This document shows, piece after piece, positions 4,857 to 24,710 of a DNA stretch of 28,940 nt (the first letter of the stretch is position 1; the number at the start of each line of letters is the position of its first letter). This stretch comes from a virus. The stretch lies in IMG/VR virus record IMGVR_UViG_3300022594_000268, positions 1-28,940 of that record; one strand, given 5' to 3'. Position numbers and translations under genes: made by a program. The notes below the pieces were generated by a model. That model was not told the origin of the DNA, did not search any database, and saw only the letters and a program-made list of their open reading frames with translations.

Positions 4857-5843
4857 ATGCAAATTAGAGAAATCAACAAACCAGTAACTGCCGCGGCACT
4901 CAACGAGAGCCTAGCAAAGAAGTTTGGTTATAAAATGAACTTTGAAAAGTTTACAAACGAGCAACTAGAAGATGCTCGTAACAAGCTACGCACAAAGATT
5001 AGTCAATTTGAAGTTAACGAAAGCTTCGACTCTGTGCTAGAAAGTCCAGAATATCAAAAAACACGTTTGATGTTAGATTGCTTGAATCAAGAAATCCTAG
5101 AAAGAGAAGAGCAAGTTGAAGAAGGTGTTTGCCCAGATTGCGGTGAAAGCCCATGTGAATGCGAACACGAGCATGAGGACAAAGAAGAACGTGCTGACGA
5201 GAGCCGTAGCTATGTAAACTTTATCCGTAATCGTGCTTCACGTTTCTCAGTTCCAGAAAGCTGGATTAACTCAGCTATTAACAGAATTCAATTAGGCGAA
5301 AGCGATCGCGAAGAACTTAAGGCAGAACTACAATTACGTTACGATTTAAATGAATCACAAGCTAGCTGGATGTTATTAGAAGGCGAAGAAGATAAGGCCG
5401 AAATCATCATGGCAACTAAAGATATGGTTGACCGTGTTACAGGTTGGTTAGAAGACGTGGCCGCTATGAAGGCAGAACAGTTATTAGAACTAGTAGATTC
5501 CATAGGAAAGCAACAAGGCAGCGATGTAGCTCAACAGTACAATGATGCTGTTAAGCCAGCATTGGAGGCCATTTATACAGCATTAGAGACATCACGTCAA
5601 GGACTACAAGGCGCATTGTCTATTGTGTCAGGCGGAGAGGCTCCAGTTATGGGCGCACCAGCAGGTGGAGCTCCAGCAATTGGTGGTGCAGACATGGGTG
5701 CTCCAGCAGATGCAGGTCTTCCTCCAATGGGTTCCGATGAAGAAGGTATGACACCTCCTGCACCGGAAGCAGGCCGTGAGAAGCGTGAAAGTGTAGATTA
5801 TTCACGTCGCTTAGGCATCCTTTTAAACTCAAAAAAAAAGTAA
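4857..5843 (+). CDS. Probable virion protein with Cys motif and Gly/Ala/Pro/Met linker; possible -1 frameshift at its end
   Basis: This is a 328-residue protein. The N-terminus MQIREINKP matches the leader-like pattern of its neighbours, and LNES (15-18) and LLEG (about 172-175) resemble T4 prohead-protease sites (L/I-x-E before a small residue). C92, C95, C100 and C102 form a CxxC-x4-CxC zinc-ribbon-like knuckle inside a very acidic region. Residues about 185-260 are helical, and 262-312 are a Gly/Ala/Pro/Met-rich linker. The reading ends TCA AAA AAA AAG TAA TAA; a -1 slip on A AAA AAG would run straight into the 5870 frame and give a 433-residue fusion. A structural role is inferred. Confidence 0.7.
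   Translation: MQIREINKPVTAAALNESLAKKFGYKMNFEKFTNEQLEDARNKLRTKISQFEVNESFDSVLESPEYQKTRLMLDCLNQEILEREEQVEEGVCPDCGESPCECEHEHEDKEERADESRSYVNFIRNRASRFSVPESWINSAINRIQLGESDREELKAELQLRYDLNESQASWMLLEGEEDKAEIIMATKDMVDRVTGWLEDVAAMKAEQLLELVDSIGKQQGSDVAQQYNDAVKPALEAIYTALETSRQGLQGALSIVSGGEAPVMGAPAGGAPAIGGADMGAPADAGLPPMGSDEEGMTPPAPEAGREKRESVDYSRRLGILLNSKKK
5829..5840 (+). other. Candidate -1 ribosomal slippery site (TC-A9-G)
   Basis: The zero-frame codons are TCA AAA AAA AAG immediately before TAATAA. The heptamer A AAA AAG is the E. coli dnaX slip sequence. The -1 frame is open from 5840 through the whole 5870 gene. The same 12-base string occurs at 18638-18649. A homopolymer sequencing error is the alternative. 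Confidence 0.45.
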
Positions 5844-5857
5844 TAAGTGAAAACATA

Positions 5858-5885
5858 GACCCCTTAGTTATGACACTAAGGAGTC
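5858..5885 (+). promoter_or_regulatory. Hairpin with the 5870 start codon in its loop
   Basis: The arms GAC-C-CCTTAGT and ACTAAGG-A-GTC pair over 10 base pairs with one C/A mismatch, around the 6-base loop TATGAC, which contains the ATG at 5870. It lies 17 bases downstream of the slippery site. It could hide the start codon, stimulate frameshifting, or both; the spacer is longer than the usual 5-9 bases. Confidence 0.5.
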
Positions 5886-6157
5886 TTCAATCAGCCGCAA
5901 ACAATCAAGGCTCACAAGCGCCAATGACATGGAAGGCACTCAACAATGCCGCAGCCAGTCTTGGCGCTCCTGATATTGACTACGATCGCTTTGCCGCACG
6001 TTGGGAAACAGATCCTGTACTAAAACAGTTAGTAGACCGCTTTGACGGATCAGGACTTGTAATCAAAACCAATAACAAAGAACAACCAGAAAAGAGATCC
6101 AAAGGTGGAGAAAGCGAAGTTAGCAAAATGGCTAAACACGCTATGCATCACCGTTGA
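5870..6157 (+). CDS. Phage hypothetical protein, possibly made as a -1 frameshift extension
   Basis: This is a 95-residue soluble protein (central part about residues 22-68, with WKALNNAAASLGAPDIDYD; basic C-terminal tail). The ATG at 5870 has no ribosome site before it and lies in the loop of a 10-base-pair hairpin, so independent initiation looks poor. The frame is continuous upstream to the slip site at 5840, which would add VISENIDPLV before the Met and join it to the 4857 product. The stop TGA is shared with the TTGACA box of the next promoter. Function unknown. Confidence 0.6.
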   Translation: MTLRSLQSAANNQGSQAPMTWKALNNAAASLGAPDIDYDRFAARWETDPVLKQLVDRFDGSGLVIKTNNKEQPEKRSKGGESEVSKMAKHAMHHR

Positions 6158-6190: not shown

Positions 6191-6910
6191 ATGACTCTAC
6201 TAACAGAAAGATACGACTACACTCCCTTAAACACGGAGTCAGTAGAAGGTACGCGTTTATCCGCTACTCCAGACGGTAACAAACTACCTTCCGTCACAAC
6301 AATCCTAGACAAGACTAAACCATTTGAAAAGGTACAGGCTCTGCTCAATTGGAAGAAAGCTGTAGGTGAAGCAAAGGCACAGGAGATTGTTACAGAAGCG
6401 GCATCACGTGGTACACGTATGCACAAGTACATTGAAGATTACATTACTTCGGGTGTGCTTAACGACCCAGGTACTAACCCATATTCAGTACAAAGCCACA
6501 AGATGGCTAAACATATTATTGAAAACGGACTTAAAAATGTTAATGAAGTGTGGGGTGTTGAAGTAGGACTTTATTATCCAGGATTATATGCAGGATCAAC
6601 CGACTGTGTAGGATTACACTTAAACGATCCGGCTATCATGGATCATAAGCAAACAAACAAACCTAAGAAAGAAGAGTGGATCGAGGACTATTACCTGCAA
6701 ATGGTAGCCTACGCTCTAGCACACAATAAAGTACATGGAACTAACATTCAAAAGGGTGTTGTGTTTATGTGCGTAAAACCCCCAGAAATTGGTAAAACAC
6801 TAACTTGGGGAGAACCTGCTTATCAGGAGTTTATTCTAAAACCAGAAGATTTTAGCTACTGGGAAAACCGCTGGTGGGATAGAGTGGAAGAATACTACGG
6901 CAAGAACTGA
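6191..6910 (+). CDS. PD-(D/E)XK exonuclease (RecB/MGME1-like)
   Basis: This is a 239-residue protein. SRGTRMHKYIEDYI is the typical helical motif of RecB-like nucleases, GSTDCVG supplies the metal-binding Asp, IMDHKQTNKPK is the (D/E)xK motif with D-H-K, and DYYLQMVAYA is the RecB-family Q motif. Such phage nucleases act on single-stranded or end-processed DNA during replication and recombination. The frame is open upstream to a TTG at 6182, but that is inside the -10 box; the ATG at 6191 sits at the predicted transcript start, so the message should be leaderless. The inverted repeat over the promoter suggests repression. Confidence 0.82.
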   Translation: MTLLTERYDYTPLNTESVEGTRLSATPDGNKLPSVTTILDKTKPFEKVQALLNWKKAVGEAKAQEIVTEAASRGTRMHKYIEDYITSGVLNDPGTNPYSVQSHKMAKHIIENGLKNVNEVWGVEVGLYYPGLYAGSTDCVGLHLNDPAIMDHKQTNKPKKEEWIEDYYLQMVAYALAHNKVHGTNIQKGVVFMCVKPPEIGKTLTWGEPAYQEFILKPEDFSYWENRWWDRVEEYYGKN

Positions 6911-15908: not shown

Positions 15909-16439
15909 ATGATACGCATCATTAAATTAGTAGTATTTGCTTTGGCAATTTCAGTTGTCGGAGTAATAGGGTACAAAGCAGTTAACTATAAGTTAGACAC
16001 CCTAAAAAATGCTCGCATGAATGTGAGCCCAGTTACAGCAGAAATGAGACAGAAACAACTAGACTGTCTAGCTCGTAACATCTACCATGAAGCCGGCTAT
16101 GAGCCCTTCGAAGGCAAGGTAGCAGTTGCCCAAGTAACAATCAACAGAGCAGAAAGTGGACAGTTCCCATCTGACATCTGCCAAGTTGTATATCAAAAGA
16201 ACATTGTATATGAAAAAGTACTGTGCCAATTTAGCTGGTACTGCGATAGTGCTTCTCTAAAGAAGCCAATGAATGGCCCCGTGTATATTGAATCTATGGA
16301 AGTAGCAAAGAAAGTGCTATTGGAGGGATTCAGGATTGACAGCGTGAAGAAAGCCCTGTATTATCATGCTGACTACGTTAATCCGCAATGGGGCAGAGAA
16401 AAAGTAGCAAAAGTCGGTCGGCACATCTTTTACAAATAA
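15909..16439 (+). CDS. SleB-type cell-wall hydrolase (endolysin) with signal anchor
   Basis: This is a 176-residue protein. Residues 5-24 are a hydrophobic N-terminal anchor without an obvious cleavage site, suggesting a signal-anchor-release endolysin. LARNIYHEAGYEP contains the catalytic Glu (E61) of the Hydrolase_2/SleB family; FSWYCD (108-113) and YHADYVNPQW (152-161) are further family motifs. Cysteines C53, C91, C106 and C112 could form disulphides in the periplasm. It cuts peptidoglycan for lysis. Strong AAAGGAG site; followed closely by a holin-like gene. Confidence 0.87.
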   Translation: MIRIIKLVVFALAISVVGVIGYKAVNYKLDTLKNARMNVSPVTAEMRQKQLDCLARNIYHEAGYEPFEGKVAVAQVTINRAESGQFPSDICQVVYQKNIVYEKVLCQFSWYCDSASLKKPMNGPVYIESMEVAKKVLLEGFRIDSVKKALYYHADYVNPQWGREKVAKVGRHIFYK

Positions 16440-16447
16440 GGACTAAA

Positions 16448-16783
16448 ATGAATACTCAACAAGTAAAACAATTTACACAGGATTTATTTAATTTAGATCT
16501 TTGGGTTAAAAACATTAAAGAACACGCACCGCATATTTCAGCAGAAACAGCAGGTTGGGTAGCAGTAGTCCTCCTACATTTGGCTACTATCCCAACTATG
16601 ATTGCTGTAATGACAGGACTAACTGAGAAAATGCCACCTGTAGATATGGTGTTGTTTAGTTGGTTAGGATTATTCTTGTTTTTTATTAAAGCAACCATCC
16701 AAAAAGATTTACTTAATATTGTAACAATTGGATTAGGCTTTTTTGTGCAGGCCGCCTTGTTAGCATTAATAGTGTTCAAGTAA
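16448..16783 (+). CDS. Three-segment membrane protein, candidate holin
   Basis: This is a 111-residue protein starting at ATG 16448 (AAGGA before it); an upstream in-frame extension inside the endolysin gene is not credible. After an amphipathic N-terminus it has three hydrophobic helices at about 36-58, 66-84 and 90-110. Size, topology and position 8 bases after the endolysin fit a class I holin, but no holin family motif was recognised. Confidence 0.65.
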   Translation: MNTQQVKQFTQDLFNLDLWVKNIKEHAPHISAETAGWVAVVLLHLATIPTMIAVMTGLTEKMPPVDMVLFSWLGLFLFFIKATIQKDLLNIVTIGLGFFVQAALLALIVFK

Positions 16784-17437: not shown

Positions 17438-18703
17438 ATGATTTTAGCCTGGCTCTTACTCCTTACTGGTCTTACAATTTCAGCTGTCGCAATCTACTAC
17501 TCCGTAGTAGGTTTGGCAGCTATCTTCTCGGCCGCTGTCGTTCCCATTATTGTTATGGGCTCTGCATTAGAAGTGGCCAAGCTAGTATGTGCCAGCTGGC
17601 TTAAAGCTAATTGGAGTAAGGCTCCACGATTGATGAAGATATACATGACTACTGCGGTAGCTGTGTTGATGCTTATCACTTCAATGGGTATTTTTGGATT
17701 CCTTTCCAAAGCACACTCAGACCAAAGTTTAGTGTCCGGTGACGTTACAAGTAAGATTGCCATCTATGATGAAAAAATCAAAACCGAGAAAGAGAATATT
17801 GAAGCAAACCGTAAGGCACTTAAACAGATGGATGAGGGAGTGGACCAAGTACTGGGTCGCTCAACAGATGAAAAAGGTGCCGACAAAGCTGTGGCTATGC
17901 GTCGCTCCCAGCAGAAAGAACGTAGTCGCTTACAAGCTGAAATATCACAGTCGCAAAAGTCTATCGCGGAACTTAACGATGCCCGTGCGCCTATTGCCGC
18001 CGAAGTACGTAAGGTTGAAGCAGAAGTTGGACCTTTAAAATACATTGCGGCGTTTGTATATGGTGCAACAGATGAATCAGTGCTAGAACGTGCTGTTACT
18101 TGGGTTATCATTACAATTATTGTAGTGTTCGATCCATTAGCAGTTATTATGTTGCTAGCCGCACAAATGACATTTGGGTGGAAGAAGGAAGAGGAAGAAG
18201 TTCCGCTATTACATAATACTGTACCAGTGCATGTAACTGAAGTAACTCAACCCAAACCGCAAAACGATCCAACTTATGAACAAGATGACGGTCCTTTAAC
18301 TGACGAGCAAATTAATCAGCTTAAAGAGTCAGTACAGCGATTTAATGATGCCGGCGAACATCCGCAGGACACATTTGAACATGAACACACAGAGGAAGAA
18401 GTTCCAACCGAAACACAGCCGACTGCACTAGGAGGTGATATAACAGCGTCTGAGGAAACAGTAGAAGGTAATTCTATTGACCAATGGAACAAGATGATCG
18501 AAGAAGCTGAAAAAGCTGTACAAGAAGAAGCTGTTGACATCCAGGGAGAAGCTAAGAAATATAGCATTATTCCTGAGCTTCAAGAAGAGTTAGATAGAAT
18601 CAAACCTGACTTAACAGAAGTGATCGAACCCGAAGAATCAAAAAAAAAGACTTACATGACAAAGGACAATCAGGGGAAAATCCAAGTCAAGGAGACCAAG
18701 TAG
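17438..18703 (+). CDS. Membrane/coiled-coil phage protein with a -1 frameshift site
   Basis: This is a 421-residue zero-frame product. Hydrophobic segments lie at about 2-20, 24-50, 67-90 and 219-243, with a charged coiled coil (about 105-205) between the third and fourth and a long acidic C-terminal tail. FDPLAVIMLLAAQ in the last segment is a recurring feature of this phage protein type. The run TCA AAA AAA AAG at 18638-18649 is 18 codons before the stop; a -1 slip there replaces KTYMTKDNQG... by 112 other residues and gives a 516-residue protein. Its function is unknown; a host inner-membrane role is inferred. Confidence 0.72.
   Translation: MILAWLLLLTGLTISAVAIYYSVVGLAAIFSAAVVPIIVMGSALEVAKLVCASWLKANWSKAPRLMKIYMTTAVAVLMLITSMGIFGFLSKAHSDQSLVSGDVTSKIAIYDEKIKTEKENIEANRKALKQMDEGVDQVLGRSTDEKGADKAVAMRRSQQKERSRLQAEISQSQKSIAELNDARAPIAAEVRKVEAEVGPLKYIAAFVYGATDESVLERAVTWVIITIIVVFDPLAVIMLLAAQMTFGWKKEEEEVPLLHNTVPVHVTEVTQPKPQNDPTYEQDDGPLTDEQINQLKESVQRFNDAGEHPQDTFEHEHTEEEVPTETQPTALGGDITASEETVEGNSIDQWNKMIEEAEKAVQEEAVDIQGEAKKYSIIPELQEELDRIKPDLTEVIEPEESKKKTYMTKDNQGKIQVKETK
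18638..18649 (+). other. Candidate -1 ribosomal slippery site (TC-A9-G)
   Basis: The zero frame reads TCA AAA AAA AAG; the heptamer A AAA AAG (18643-18649) is the dnaX-type slip sequence. It is the same 12-base string as at 5829-5840. No convincing stimulatory hairpin was seen just downstream. A homopolymer sequencing error is the alternative. Confidence 0.6.
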
Positions 18704-18987
18704 GATACGTACAAAACGCTGAACAAGGCGCAAGTACACTTTGGGCAAGAATACAAACAAGAACTTCTGACGATATATTCAAACCTATAGACCGACTCTA
18801 TGTAGAATTTAATAAGGATCGGTTTTCAGGAATAGATGCATCCAACGAGTTAGAGGTACAAAAATTTATTAACGATATCCAATCTGGAGAACATAAATTT
18901 GACGACTATTCTGCAGAAGATATCGAATACTTTGCAAAGAGAATATATGAACTTAGGGAAAATAACAGTAATAACACCGCCGGATAA
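18649..18987 (+). CDS. -1 frame extension of the 17438 protein (no start codon of its own)
   Basis: From 18649 the -1 frame runs 112 codons to TAA 18985-18987. The frame is open back only to TGA 18607 and contains no ATG, GTG or TTG anywhere, so normal initiation cannot explain it. The sequence looks like genuine protein: DIFKPIDRLYVEFNKDRFSG and later FDDYSAEDIEYFAKRIYELR. It fills a 240-base stretch that would otherwise be empty and overlaps the 18947 start. Product: join of 17438-18649 and 18649-18987. Function unknown. Confidence 0.65.
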   Translation, partial: DLHDKGQSGENPSQGDQVGYVQNAEQGASTLWARIQTRTSDDIFKPIDRLYVEFNKDRFSGIDASNELEVQKFINDIQSGEHKFDDYSAEDIEYFAKRIYELRENNSNNTAG

Positions 18988-19363
18988 ACTATTCAATTTA
19001 ACTCTAAGTTACTTGTTAGTATGCCCTAGCAATCATGTAAATGAACAATTTCAAACCATACTAAGCCATAGCATTGATGACTTAAATGTGTTCATTTATG
19101 GTAATCAAGAAGATGATGTTAGTTGGCTATTAAGTGTTGCTCAACAGGTCGATTGTGTAATTATTGACGTAGACAACTGCGATATAACAACCAAACAGTT
19201 TGTCACATTTATGTTAGCACAGCCTAACGTACACTATATAACTAACGACGAAATTACTCCATATAATTTGATAAGTAAAAATCGTATATACGATTTGGAT
19301 TGGATAGTCGACCAAATCAAAGAACAAGAAGACGAAGAGGATAGTGATGAATCAGAAGAGTAG
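18947..19363 (+). CDS. Phage hypothetical protein
   Basis: This is a 138-residue protein. The ATG at 18947 (AAAGAGAA before it) is preferred over the TTG at 18899. It has alternating hydrophobic strands (KITVITPPDKLFNLTL, VDCVIIDVDNCDI) like a small Rossmann-type fold and ends in a strongly acidic tail (EQEDEEDSDESEE). The start overlaps the frameshift extension by 41 bases and the end overlaps bS21 by 17. No catalytic motif is recognised. Confidence 0.65.
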   Translation: MNLGKITVITPPDKLFNLTLSYLLVCPSNHVNEQFQTILSHSIDDLNVFIYGNQEDDVSWLLSVAQQVDCVIIDVDNCDITTKQFVTFMLAQPNVHYITNDEITPYNLISKNRIYDLDWIVDQIKEQEDEEDSDESEE

Positions 19364-19577: not shown

Positions 19578-19623
19578 CATTAGTATATAGGCCAGTTAAA
19601 ATACGCATATGATTAACTGGCCT
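19574..19623 (+). promoter_or_regulatory. Sigma70-type promoter with an 11-base inverted repeat across the start codon
   Basis: TTGACA (19574-19579) and TAAAAT (19597-19602) are 17 bases apart; the -10 ends 7 bases before ATG 19609, so the message is predicted leaderless. AGGCCAGTTAA (19589-19599) and TTAACTGGCCT (19613-19623) form a perfect inverted repeat around the -10 and ATG, usable as an operator, or as an RNA hairpin in read-through transcripts. Confidence 0.7.
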
Positions 19624-20985
19624 GATTATATAAAACTAAAAGAAAACAAATATAGTAAGTGGTACACTGACCTTATAGAAAAAGCCCAGTCTAGAGTATT
19701 ACCTAAAGACGTTTATACTGAGAAACACCACATAATTCCCAAAGCCTGGGGCGGTATAGATAAAAAGATTAACCTTGTTCGATTAACTGCTAGAGAGCAC
19801 TACATGGCTCATGCTTTCTTGTGGAAAATGAGTGTTGGAGAAGGGTTTCATAATAAGATGGTTCATGCATTCAATGCCATGAGTATCATGAAAGACGGAT
19901 CCTATAACAAACCTGGTTATAAAATAAACAGCAGACTATTCCAATCTGTAAGATTAGAAAGAATTGCTCATCTAAGAACACTTAAAGGTCCCTTGAGCCC
20001 AGCATACGGAAAGAAACAGAATGTTTCTGAAGAGGGAAAACTTAATAGGAAAAAAGCGCAAGAAGAATTTTGGAATGATCCCGAACGTGTAGCACGTAGA
20101 AACGAAAATTTACGTAAAGCACAACAAACTCCCGAAGCTATTGCCAAACGCAAAGCATTAGCTGATTCAAAGCGAGGGATTAGACGCGATCCTGCCATTA
20201 TAGAAAAGAGCGCATCTAAACGTCGAGGCAAACCGGTCTCTCAACAAGCATTAGAAAATATACGACAGGGAAATAAGAATAGAATTTATTCTCCTGAAGC
20301 TAAAGAAAAAATGAGAGAAGTTGCTCGAATGAACGGAAGCAGACCAAAGTCTGAGGAACATAAAAGAAGAATAGCCGAAAGTAATAAAAAAGTAGATAGA
20401 TGGTGGACCAGAGGAGAGAATAATCACAATTACGGTAAAACAATGTTGCCGCATGTAAAAGAAAAATTAAAAGAAGCCAATCAGAACAAGTACAAAGAAC
20501 GAAAATCTAAAATGTTTGTTGGGCCTATTAAACCAACAAACACATTTACATTCAGGGGAGTTGTTTATAGAGGTGTTTGCCAGGCATCAAGGCAAACTGG
20601 TTTTTCTCAAAGTCAAATAAAAACACAAGTTAAATATTGGGGAGAAAATCCTGATCAAGAGACAATTAGAAAAATCGATAATAGAGAATTAGAATACCCT
20701 AGAGTAGCACCAAATAAAGGTATTCCTATGAGTGAGGAACAGAAACGTTCTATAAAGGAAACAAAACGTATTAAGTTTGAAAAACTTAGAGAAGCGGGCC
20801 TTCCTAATCCAAACACAGGAAGAAAAGCATCTGAAGAAACTAGAAAAAAAATAGCTGAAAAAGCTAAAGGCAGAAAAGCATCTGAAGAAACTAGAAAAAT
20901 TTTATCACAAGCAAGTAAGGGAAAACCAAAGTCTCCAGCGCATATAGAAGCTATAAGATTAGCCAAACTAGCCAAAAAAAGTTAA
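19609..20985 (+). CDS. HNH homing endonuclease with NUMOD3 repeats
   Basis: This is a 458-residue protein. EKHHIIPKAWGG (about 40-51) and the following N/H residues (TAREHYMAH) form the HNH nuclease site. The rest is a string of helical DNA-binding modules of NUMOD3 type (SEEHKRRIAESNK, MSEEQKRSIKETKR, and GRKASEETRKK twice) and a FRGVVYRGVCQASRQTGFS segment typical of homing-endonuclease DNA-binding ends. It is free-standing, with its own promoter, between rpsU and the exonuclease. Arg is often AGA, unlike the CGT-preferring neighbours, in line with recent transfer. Confidence 0.9.
   Translation: MINWPDYIKLKENKYSKWYTDLIEKAQSRVLPKDVYTEKHHIIPKAWGGIDKKINLVRLTAREHYMAHAFLWKMSVGEGFHNKMVHAFNAMSIMKDGSYNKPGYKINSRLFQSVRLERIAHLRTLKGPLSPAYGKKQNVSEEGKLNRKKAQEEFWNDPERVARRNENLRKAQQTPEAIAKRKALADSKRGIRRDPAIIEKSASKRRGKPVSQQALENIRQGNKNRIYSPEAKEKMREVARMNGSRPKSEEHKRRIAESNKKVDRWWTRGENNHNYGKTMLPHVKEKLKEANQNKYKERKSKMFVGPIKPTNTFTFRGVVYRGVCQASRQTGFSQSQIKTQVKYWGENPDQETIRKIDNRELEYPRVAPNKGIPMSEEQKRSIKETKRIKFEKLREAGLPNPNTGRKASEETRKKIAEKAKGRKASEETRKILSQASKGKPKSPAHIEAIRLAKLAKKS
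20821..20899 (+). repeat. Direct repeat, 28 identical bases at 51-base period
   Basis: Copies at 20821-20848 and 20872-20899 are identical and each encodes RKASEETRK of a NUMOD3 module. This is a recent internal duplication inside the homing endonuclease gene. Confidence 0.85.
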
Positions 20986-21963: not shown

Positions 21964-23865
21964 ATGAGCAAAATCATCGGTATCGATTTAGGTACAACAA
22001 ATAGCTGTGTAGCAATCCTAGAAAACGGAGTTGCTAAAGTAATCGAAAACAGCGAAGGTGCTAGAACAACACCATCAATCATTGCATATACAAAGGACGA
22101 GATCCTAGTTGGTGCAACAGCAAAACGACAAGCAGTCACAAACCCAAAGAATACAATTTACGCCGCAAAGCGTTTGATCGGACGTAAGTTTGAAGAAAAA
22201 GAAGTCCAAAAGGACATCGATCTAATGCCTTATGCTATTGTTAAGGCAGACAATGGTGACGCTTGGATCGAAGCAAACAATGAAAAACTAGCACCACAAC
22301 AAGTGTCAGCTGAAGTGCTACGTAAAATGAAAAAGACAGCTGAAGACTATTTGGGTACAACCGTTACACAAGCAGTTATTACTGTTCCGGCTTACTTCAA
22401 CGACAGTCAACGTCAAGCTACTAAGGACGCAGGTAAGATTGCAGGCCTAGAAGTTCTACGTATTATCAATGAGCCAACAGCGGCCGCACTAGCATATGGT
22501 GTAGACAAGCAGGACAAGAAGGATCGCAAGGTTGCCGTTTATGACTTAGGTGGTGGTACATTTGACGTAAGCATTATTGAAATCGCCAACATCGACGGCG
22601 ACAAGCAAATTGAAGTGTTGTCAACAAACGGCGACACATTCTTGGGCGGTGAAGACTTTGACCAAGCTATCATGGATCACTTGGTAGACGAGTTTAAGAA
22701 AGACAATGGAATTGATCTTAAGACAGACGTACTAGCACTACAACGTTTGAAAGAAGCCGCAGAAAAAGCTAAGATTGAACTGTCAAGCAGTCAATCAACA
22801 AGTGTTAACTTGCCATATATCACAGCAGATGCAAATGGTCCAAAGCACATGAACGTGACTATCAGCCGTTCTAAGTTTGAACAAATGGTTGAAAAGTTAA
22901 TCCAACGTTCAATCGAGCCTTGTAAGACAGCAATGGCAGATGCTAAAGTAACTGCTGAAGACATTGACGAAGTTATCTTAGTTGGCGGTCAAACACGTAT
23001 GCCTAAGGTACAAGAAGCAGTTGAAAAATTGTTTGGTAAAACTCCACGTAAGGATGTCAACCCAGACGAAGCAGTTGCCGCAGGTGCCGCAATCCAAGGC
23101 GCTGTTCTAGCAGGCGATAAGACAGACGTATTGTTATTGGACGTAACTCCATTAACTCTAGGTATTGAAACAATGGGCGGTGTGTTTACCAAGTTGATTA
23201 GCAAAAACACAACTATCCCAACCAAGCACTCACAAGTATTCTCAACAGCAGAAGACAACCAACCAGCGGTTACTATTAAAGTAGCACAAGGTGAACGTGA
23301 TATTTTCAAATATAATAAATTGCTTGGCGAGTTTAACTTAGAAGGTATTGCACCAGCAATGCGTGGCATGCCACAAATCGAAGTTACTCTAGACATTGAT
23401 GCTAACGGTATCTTGAATGTAAGTGCTAAAGATAAAAATACTGGCAAAGAAAACAAGATCACTATCAAGTCAGATAGCGGATTAACTGATGAAGAAATTC
23501 AACGTATGGTTCGCGAAGCAGAAGAAAATGCAGAAGCTGATAAGAAAACTAAAGAGTTAATTGAAGCTAAGAATCAAGCTGAAAGCACACGTCACTCATT
23601 GAATAAAGACTTTGAGGAATTCAAAGAGCAATTATCTGATGATGAAAAGACAGCTTATGAAACAGCCAAAGCAGATTTGGACACAGCAATGACCGGCGAT
23701 GATAAGGAAAAGATCAATGAGGCTTTAACCAAATTGTTTGAAACATCAGCACCGATCACTGCTAAGAGACAAGCCGCTGAACAAGCTAAACAAGCCCAAC
23801 CAACCGAGGGCGAACAAACCGTTAATGCGGAGTTCAAAGAGGTTGATGACACAGACACAAAGTAA
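21964..23865 (+). CDS. dnaK: Hsp70 chaperone DnaK, full length
   Basis: This is a 633-residue protein with all parts of a bacterial Dna[15 protein letters not shown] phosphate loop, [12 protein letters not shown] and [10 protein letters not shown] of the ATPase domain, [26 protein letters not shown] at the linker, NTTIPTK and [11 protein letters not shown] of the substrate domain, a helical lid and a Glu/Asp-rich C-terminus ([11 protein letters not shown]). ATP-driven folding needs DnaJ and GrpE, neither of which is encoded here, so host partners are presumed. It has strong ribosome binding under the thermometer-like leader. hsp20 follows. Confidence 0.95.
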
Positions 23866-23878
23866 TATAATGTAAACA

Positions 23879-23929
23879 TGTAGGGCGCCTATGGTAGGGC
23901 CCTACAAAGTTCTTGCTTAATAAAGGAGA
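23879..23929 (+). promoter_or_regulatory. ROSE-like RNA thermometer candidate in the hsp20 leader
   Basis: The first hairpin (23879-23906) pairs TGTAGGGC with GCCCTACA, with a bulged G (23887) and CCTA/TAGG around TGG. Compared with dnaK, three pairs differ by changes that keep pairing (G-U to G-C, A-U to G-C twice). Three bases later TTCTT-G-CTT (23910-23918) pairs with AAGGAGA, again with a bulged G (23915). Confidence 0.75.
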
Positions 23930-23935
23930 TCTAAA

Positions 23936-24355
23936 ATGACACAACTAAGAACTATTGATGCGGCAGCTCTTGCCGGACTAAACAGAGCACTTGTAGGTTT
24001 TGACCGTTACTTTGCTAACCAATCAGTTAACAGCAACTATCCTCCACATAACATTGTGAAGTATGCCGATAACCAATATGGGATTGAAGTAGCAGTAGCA
24101 GGATTTTCTAAAGAGGAAATCACTGTCGAAGTTGACCAAGACCAACTAACAATCACAGGTGTTAAATCACTTGATGTAGGCGATTCAAAAGAATACTTGC
24201 ATCGTGGGTTAGCGGCCCGTGACTTTGAACAAACATTTACTCTTGCCGAGTATATGGAAGTCAAAGGCGCAGAGGTTAAGGATGGTATGCTCAAGATTCA
24301 AATCGAGCGTATTGTTCCTGATGCACTCAAACCTCGCCAGATTGAAATTAAATAA
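23936..24355 (+). CDS. Small heat-shock protein (IbpA/Hsp20 type)
   Basis: This is a 139-residue protein. YPPHNIVKYADNQYGIEVAVAGFS and the following KEEITVEV open the alpha-crystallin domain (about 36-125), with GLAARDFEQTFTLAEY and DGMLKIQIE as conserved later strands. It binds unfolding proteins without ATP and hands them to DnaK, which is the adjacent gene. The leader carries the same thermometer-like element as dnaK. Length is typical of the class A IbpA group. Confidence 0.93.
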   Translation: MTQLRTIDAAALAGLNRALVGFDRYFANQSVNSNYPPHNIVKYADNQYGIEVAVAGFSKEEITVEVDQDQLTITGVKSLDVGDSKEYLHRGLAARDFEQTFTLAEYMEVKGAEVKDGMLKIQIERIVPDALKPRQIEIK

Positions 24356-24369
24356 TTGTAAATAAACCC

Positions 24370-24387
24370 GGGGGAGGCAACTCCCCC
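24370..24387 (+). promoter_or_regulatory. Stable hairpin with GCAA tetraloop between hsp20 and clpS
   Basis: A perfect 7-base-pair stem GGGGGAG/CTCCCCC is closed by the GNRA loop GCAA. There is no T-run, so it is unlikely to terminate; it could stabilise the 3' end of the hsp20 message or mark processing. Confidence 0.65.
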
Positions 24388-24407
24388 ACTTTAGAAAAGA
24401 GATAACA

Positions 24408-24710
24408 ATGCCTAGCACCGATATTCAGTTAGATGAAAAGATTAAGATTAAAGTTTCCGAACCAAAGAACTGGAAAGTAATCTTATTGAATGACGACACT
24501 ACTCCTATGGAATTTGTAATTGCAGTTCTTATGGAGATTTTTAAACATAGTCATAATAGTGCTACTGATGTTACTATGCAAGTACACGAAACTGGTAGCG
24601 GCATTGCTGGTGTGTATAGTTTTGAAATTGCAGAAGCTAAAGCAGTTGAAGCAACACAGACTGCACGTACAAACGGTCATCCGTTACAAATTAAATTGGA
24701 AGAAGAATGA
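24408..24710 (+). CDS. clpS: ClpS N-degron adaptor
   Basis: This is a 100-residue protein. WKVILLNDDTTPMEFVIAVL is the ClpS core with the N-D-D substrate pocket; VHETGSGIAGVYSFEIAEAK is the second conserved block. ClpS delivers proteins with N-end-rule residues to ClpAP; no ClpA or ClpP is encoded here, so the phage copy would redirect the host protease. Its stop overlaps the heme oxygenase start (ATGA), so the two are translationally coupled. Confidence 0.93.
   Translation: MPSTDIQLDEKIKIKVSEPKNWKVILLNDDTTPMEFVIAVLMEIFKHSHNSATDVTMQVHETGSGIAGVYSFEIAEAKAVEATQTARTNGHPLQIKLEEE

Follow-up and report, generated by a model that had tools for sequence, protein, structure and literature searches.

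Slippage on a conserved A-run probably gives a membrane protein of uncultured phages two C-termini

Does a single phage membrane protein gene give rise to two proteins with different C-termini, and if so, is it the ribosome or the RNA polymerase that slips? The window, a 28.9-kb phage fragment from IMG/VR (28,940 nucleotides), contains an ORF, here called gene M (17438..18703, + strand, as are all features below), which encodes a zero-frame product of 421 aa and has 80 or more homologues. The product consists of N-terminal transmembrane helices, a long coiled coil, a further transmembrane stretch, a low-complexity C-terminal part and a short ending, TYMTKDNQGKIQVKETK. Near the end of the gene, TCAAAAAAAAAG is located at 18638-18649 in frame with the ORF, which reads ...ESKKK, then TYMTKDNQGKIQVKETK and the stop. 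Its A9 run (18640..18648, phased TCA AAA AAA AAG) includes the heptamer A_AAA_AAG at 18643-18649. The short ending comprises 17 zero-frame codons past the AAG and a stop (18650..18703; TAG at 18701-18703). From G18649 the -1 frame stays open up to a TAA at 18985-18987, a tail of 112 codons plus stop (18649..18987), and from the upstream -1 stop (18607) to 18987 this frame has no ATG, GTG or TTG. The fused product would have 516 aa and include LYVEFNK. An earlier note had proposed a programmed -1 ribosomal frameshift here; its codon counts around the run, the open -1 frame free of these start codons and the 516-residue form with LYVEFNK were all confirmed from the sequence.

The tail consists of a linker, a YVQN.EQ....LW motif and a predicted three-helix domain. 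The YVQNAEQ motif is at 18706..18726, and its Y, Q, N, E and Q were invariant in the alignment of 62 tail sequences. The next gene (18947..19363, 138 aa, beginning MNLGKITVITPPD), assigned from its sequence and found in 41 of 47 fully flanked loci, overlaps the final 41 bases of the tail, and conservation of the last tail residues is in part due to this overlap. The centre of the tail is free of recognised + strand gene overlap.

To compare the locus with its relatives, IMG/VR was searched with gene M (best 80 of 444) and with a tail profile (best 80 of 205), and four further searches, each scanning the best 80 loci, widened the set. The evidence is thus a comparison of metagenome assemblies, and since the sequences share ancestry, a count of contexts does not equal a number of independent events. 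One contig from another IMG/VR data set is identical to the window over 11,200 bases, A9 run included, and may share its source site. Among the matches listed, 169 distinct contexts carried a YVQN-type tail, and in 98 of them an A-run of 8-11 A preceded the tail, which was in the -1 frame (89 A9, 7 A8, 1 A10 and 1 A11). The short frame ended 16-18 codons past the run in nearly all of these -1 contexts, with a conserved peptide ([TS]Y[MI].K...G.IQ.K.RE before the stop) and a coding-like codon-position pattern (entropy 0.80/0.83/1.36 at the first, second and third positions). The tail opened with ..GYVQN.EQ....LW.RI and then either ended about 20 codons on (short tails) or entered a domain of about 60 residues. 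Over the 75 codons past the YVQN motif, the -1 frame was open in 70 of 71 long-tail loci, with one stop in total, and the other two frames were open in none (328 and 712 stops). Variation of the tail was greatest at third codon positions. These results indicate that the tail is evolving as a protein in the -1 frame, as the earlier note had judged from its appearance, and by comparison both endings of gene M are conserved and selected. The alignment of homologues that the note had called for revealed the slip run and the -1 frame in all 98 contexts. In one relative (L079, near 6280-6310), a zero-frame stop directly follows the run (KKKN and stop) and the short ending is gone; the YVQN tail is still in -1.

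Homopolymers are prone to sequencing and assembly errors, and two ordinary overlapping genes, the second with its own start codon, would look similar. A GTG or TTG was indeed present in frame between the run and the YVQN motif in 2 of the 98 -1 contexts. However, ATG, GTG and TTG were all absent from this interval in the other 96, no conserved start of a separate tail gene was found among the homologous contexts, the same arrangement recurred in dozens of data sets at a tail identity of about 40-70%, and the zero-frame ending was conserved in its own right. An artefact or a pair of independent genes is therefore very improbable.

We further examined how these phages treat A-runs elsewhere. In their other ORFs, runs of 7, 8 and 9 A occurred at 0.41, 0.38 and 0.14 of the expectation from synonymous shuffles, A9 runs being seen once against 7.1 expected, and in-frame A_AAA_AAG was seen 15 times against 34.8. 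Selection against slippage-prone runs in bacteria is commonly evident at nine nucleotides (PMC1088944). In eight large contigs (1.87 Mb combined), A9G occurred ten times, and nine of these were the gene M site and the second slip site described below, three of them assigned by position only. The remaining A9G (L250; G004 42164) lies close to where another ORF begins (MSTEKKRILIA...).

Which machinery reads across the run? A programmed -1 ribosomal frameshift on A_AAA_AAG, the dnaX heptamer, would involve a tandem slip of P- and A-site Lys-tRNAs aided by the long A run, and the 516-residue form would arise from an mRNA that always carries A9. For the class to which the window belongs, this is a strong rival. 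The heptamer was correctly phased in 96 of the 98 -1 contexts, the seven A8-only contexts among them, and this in-frame X_XXY_YYZ heptamer is followed by an open, conserved -1 frame. The avoidance of in-frame A_AAA_AAG in other ORFs points the same way, and in E. coli it is the shiftiest of the A heptamers (PMC5009743). The gene M site, however, had no signal of a nested (pseudoknot-free) stimulatory RNA structure in 64 loci (60-nt windows; mean z -0.12 at +0 and -0.17 at +15), nor was a Shine-Dalgarno-like stimulator detected upstream of the run, the mean anti-SD duplex energy being at best -1.5 kcal/mol. Some known frameshift sites also have no Shine-Dalgarno stimulator.

A second class of relatives bears on this question. 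In 22 distinct contexts, the A9 run is phased AAA AAA AAA G, so that the tail is in frame and the short ending (motif TW.E..G.QQIKK in a reversed-class phage) is intact in the +1 frame. The entropy of the short frame in this reversed class was 0.80/0.80/1.20 by codon position, the third being the most variable (bootstrap P 0.003, a value that overstates independence because the sequences are related). In both classes the second position of the short frame, which is the third position of the long frame, was conserved. These patterns indicate that the short ending is under selection in the reversed class, although it cannot be reached by standard decoding or by a -1 shift. Since a -1 shift cannot yield a short ending in +1, the reversed class is the main argument against a ribosomal -1 slip. 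We therefore consider a -1 ribosomal slip possible but doubtful as the general explanation.

We infer that slippage at the run connects the two endings, and no workable alternative was found. The best explanation of the comparisons is that A-run slippage, most likely by RNA polymerase, yields both C-termini, to which we assign a probability of a little under 60%. RNA polymerase would slip on the run and produce mRNAs with 8, 9, 10 and more A, and as a result both proteins would be made whichever frame the genome encodes. In the window, the unslipped message would give the 421-residue short form, and an extra A, in the message or in its reading, would lead to the 516-residue form, which bears both the YVQN/LW motif and a small helical domain. 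One gene would thus produce two membrane proteins with about 404 residues in common and different C-termini. Slippage in both directions, with gain or loss of an A, would explain the -1 and the reversed classes alike, and the codon-position results, in which both frames are kept whichever one the genome encodes, support the polymerase. Pairs of +1 and -1 arrangements within one transposase family have likewise been read as transcriptional realignment (PMC3711429). A ribosomal -1 slip on A_AAA_AAG may contribute in the class of the window.

Several observations argue against the polymerase. Seven distinct -1 contexts have A8 (TCT AAA AAA AAG), are scattered over the tree and keep A_AAA_AAG intact, and polymerase slippage at A8 should be weak. 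A G follows the run in 96 of the 98 -1 contexts, which fits the E. coli ribosomal heptamer; the D/E residue of the -1 frame also requires this G. The codon phase is identical at the two slip sites, and slippage of the E. coli RNA polymerase is inefficient on A runs (PMC6260861). Since ribosome sliding on poly-A can lose the frame and movement is allowed both ways (PMC4363877), the ribosome may, by analogy, be the slipping agent even in the reversed class. Of the earlier proposal, then, the conserved -1 C-terminus fused to a membrane protein stands in 98 distinct contexts, and the ribosome as the agent is made less secure by the missing stimulators and the +1 short ending of the reversed class.

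Relatives in which the tail is fused in frame are also present. The fused and -1 states were interspersed in the tree, with 17 changes in the fused character, at least nine of them forced by well-supported branches. Runs of at least 9 A were found in 91 of the 98 -1 contexts and in 27 fused contexts with two frames. In fused relatives with just 7-8 A, the linker peptide was mostly in the same frame, and no slip is needed. Fusions by an A10 run, which the earlier note had named as a sign of a simple fused gene, were found in relatives (L151, L163, L327 and L007/L008) and not in the window contig. Differences in A count of this kind among relatives (A9 or A10, both frames being intact, and A10 or A11 in the L288/L290 group) are what a contingency locus would leave behind, in which the number of A in the genome changes by replication slippage and any one phage produces chiefly a single form. 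Yet the A count matches the phase in most lineages across deep divergence (89 A9 in the -1 class and 22 A9 in the reversed class) with both frames selected, and the A8 lineages persist, which makes phase variation an improbable explanation. A different -1 tail (VATDEED...LIDRLPWQVDEL) was found behind GAA AAA AAA AAG TAG in the gene M relatives L269, L288, L296 and L312; in their sisters L290, L295, L311 and L313, this tail is an in-frame fusion, the runs being 9, 10 or 11 A long. In L270, L294, L274 and L330, the short-ending peptide (TYMVKEGDQQV or TSWIE...QQIKK) is in one frame with the YVQN tail, and this layout is perhaps the ancestral single-frame gene.

The window contains a second slip site, 12.8 kb upstream of the gene M run. 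A gene at 4857..5843, with a zero-frame product of 328 aa that ends in ...SKKK, is closed by TCA AAA AAA AAG TAA at 5829-5843; it probably encodes a virion protein (weak match to phrog_14154, virion structural protein, E=6.7e-08), and no match to it was obtained among isolates. Its A9 run is at 5831..5839, and the -1 frame behind it is a tail of 105 codons plus stop (5840..6157; V..E..DPLV.TLR.LQ...), recognised by comparison with relatives. The run had at least 9 A in 53 of 54 distinct relatives and was followed by G, C or T; in 53 of the 54, 9 A and then G or C, or else 10 A, were followed immediately by the zero-frame stop. In 53 distinct relatives, the -1 frame was open over about 100-120 codons and encoded a conserved protein. 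A possible start ahead of the DP motif was present in 13 of these 53, and the ATG at 5870 in the window is not conserved. The same cassette would thus serve a second, probably virion, gene. A run never below 9 A among these 53, with a free base after it, fits slippage by the polymerase. A predicted hairpin 17 bases past the run (5858..5885, arms 5858-5868 and 5875-5885) speaks for the ribosome, its covariation being 0.233 by direct pair counting against 0.145 ± 0.010 in shuffled and at most 0.114 in slid alignments; RNAalifold gave a consensus without pairs at this site. However, the base after the run varies, and the distance from run to hairpin also varies, from about 17 to 29 bases, instead of a fixed 5-9.

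To understand the possible role of gene M, we examined its neighbourhood and structure models. In 38-39 of 47 fully flanked loci, gene M follows a cell-wall hydrolase with a hydrophobic N-terminus (Hydrolase_2, Pfam PF07486, E=2.8e-25; 15909..16439; 39 of 47) and a small multi-span membrane protein (16388..16783; 38 of 47), which is holin-like by position only and had no PHROG match; DnaK, Hsp20 and ClpS genes are located downstream. These DnaK, Hsp20 and ClpS-like genes cluster at 21964-24710 of the window, and their order is conserved among relatives. A probable homing endonuclease (19609-20985), between the next gene and an exonuclease-like gene, was confined to 3 of 47 relatives. In an AlphaFold model of a fused relative (L163, mean pLDDT 70), the N-terminus was helical, a long helical hairpin was present and the C-terminal part was disordered for the most part; the tail-only model (pLDDT 64 overall) had a disordered arm and three helices (46-57, 68-79 and 89-106) with block pLDDT of about 81-87. 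Foldseek gave no significant match for either model, and Pfam and PHROGs gave nothing consistent for the tail. The transmembrane and coiled-coil part showed weak profile similarity to the DUF4407 and tetraspanin Pfam models, below both curated cut-offs; for DUF4407 (PF14362) the score was 20.9 against 31.3 bits, and membership was rejected. A phage tail assembly chaperone of the G/GT type was also rejected, as there was no PHROG match and the neighbours are the hydrolase, the small membrane protein, DnaK, Hsp20 and ClpS. By analogy, gene M may encode a coiled-coil protein anchored in the membrane, with a cytoplasmic docking arm (YVQN...LW plus the helical domain) that a set fraction of the molecules would bear.

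Both slip mechanisms are known from dnaX, which is read by a ribosomal -1 slip on A_AAA_AAG in E. coli and through polymerase slippage on an A9 run in Thermus thermophilus. Gene M resembles dnaX in its identical heptamer or run and in having two products with a common N-terminus; unlike the gene M site, E. coli dnaX has a Shine-Dalgarno sequence and a stem-loop as stimulators, and the products are unrelated. By analogy, the closest parallel to gene M is TssM: TssM1/TssM3 of Citrobacter rodentium and Yersinia pseudotuberculosis occur as length variants through poly-A transcriptional slippage (PMC4256274). TssM, too, is an inner-membrane protein that a poly-A run supplies with C-termini of two lengths, and the two species differ in whether recoding yields the longer or the shorter form, comparable to the two classes of gene M. 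That system requires both forms in a set ratio, and the same is envisaged for gene M. Unlike gene M, the C. rodentium tssM run is A11 and just two such tssM genes have been identified; here a phage family has runs of A8-A11, both endings are conserved peptides, and two genes per genome are affected. Recoding in tailed phages, as in the lambda G/GT tail chaperone and the coat and tail extensions of T3, A118 and PSA (PMC5009743), similarly places a shift near the gene end and gives an extended product, but, unlike lambda G/GT, gene M encodes a membrane protein beside an endolysin-like gene and its tail is without a database match. In IS elements, orfA-orfB fusions occur on A-runs (PMC1088944, PMC3711429); there too, an A8-A10 run joins two frames, with +1 and -1 pairs in one family, but the products are transposases, and in gene M the unslipped product has its own conserved ending as well.

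The phages that carry these runs are a large, uncultured group, which we read as freshwater from mostly lake-like data sets. Among isolated phages, the membrane domain of gene M was found in 13 records, for example Pelagibacter phage Mosig and Xanthomonas phage XacN1; the YVQN tail was absent from the six of these records examined, and no isolate in the collections searched carried it. GTDB contigs gave nine relatives of gene M, none with a recognisable -1 tail. Relatives on contigs filed as bacterial MAGs (L415-L423; Pelagibacter, Porticoccaceae, WOR-3 and others) are probably binned contigs of phage origin.

Most known examples of conserved recoding in tailed phages concern coat or tail-chaperone genes; for conserved transcriptional slippage, the known cases come mainly from secretion genes, dnaX and IS elements. 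We see an even chance that a widespread tailed-phage group makes standing use of two-way polymerase slippage on a conserved A-run in two or more genes of each genome, a membrane protein by lysis-type genes and a virion protein, with the gene M run yielding two conserved C-termini and both products being retained through repeated switches of the encoded frame. Such genes would be split or truncated by standard gene callers, and the 516-residue protein and the extension of the virion protein are therefore probably missing from annotations. The frame-swapped natural relatives amount to an evolutionary experiment that helps to tell ribosome from polymerase slippage, and for two of its genes this large group of uncultured phages appears to rely on A-runs.
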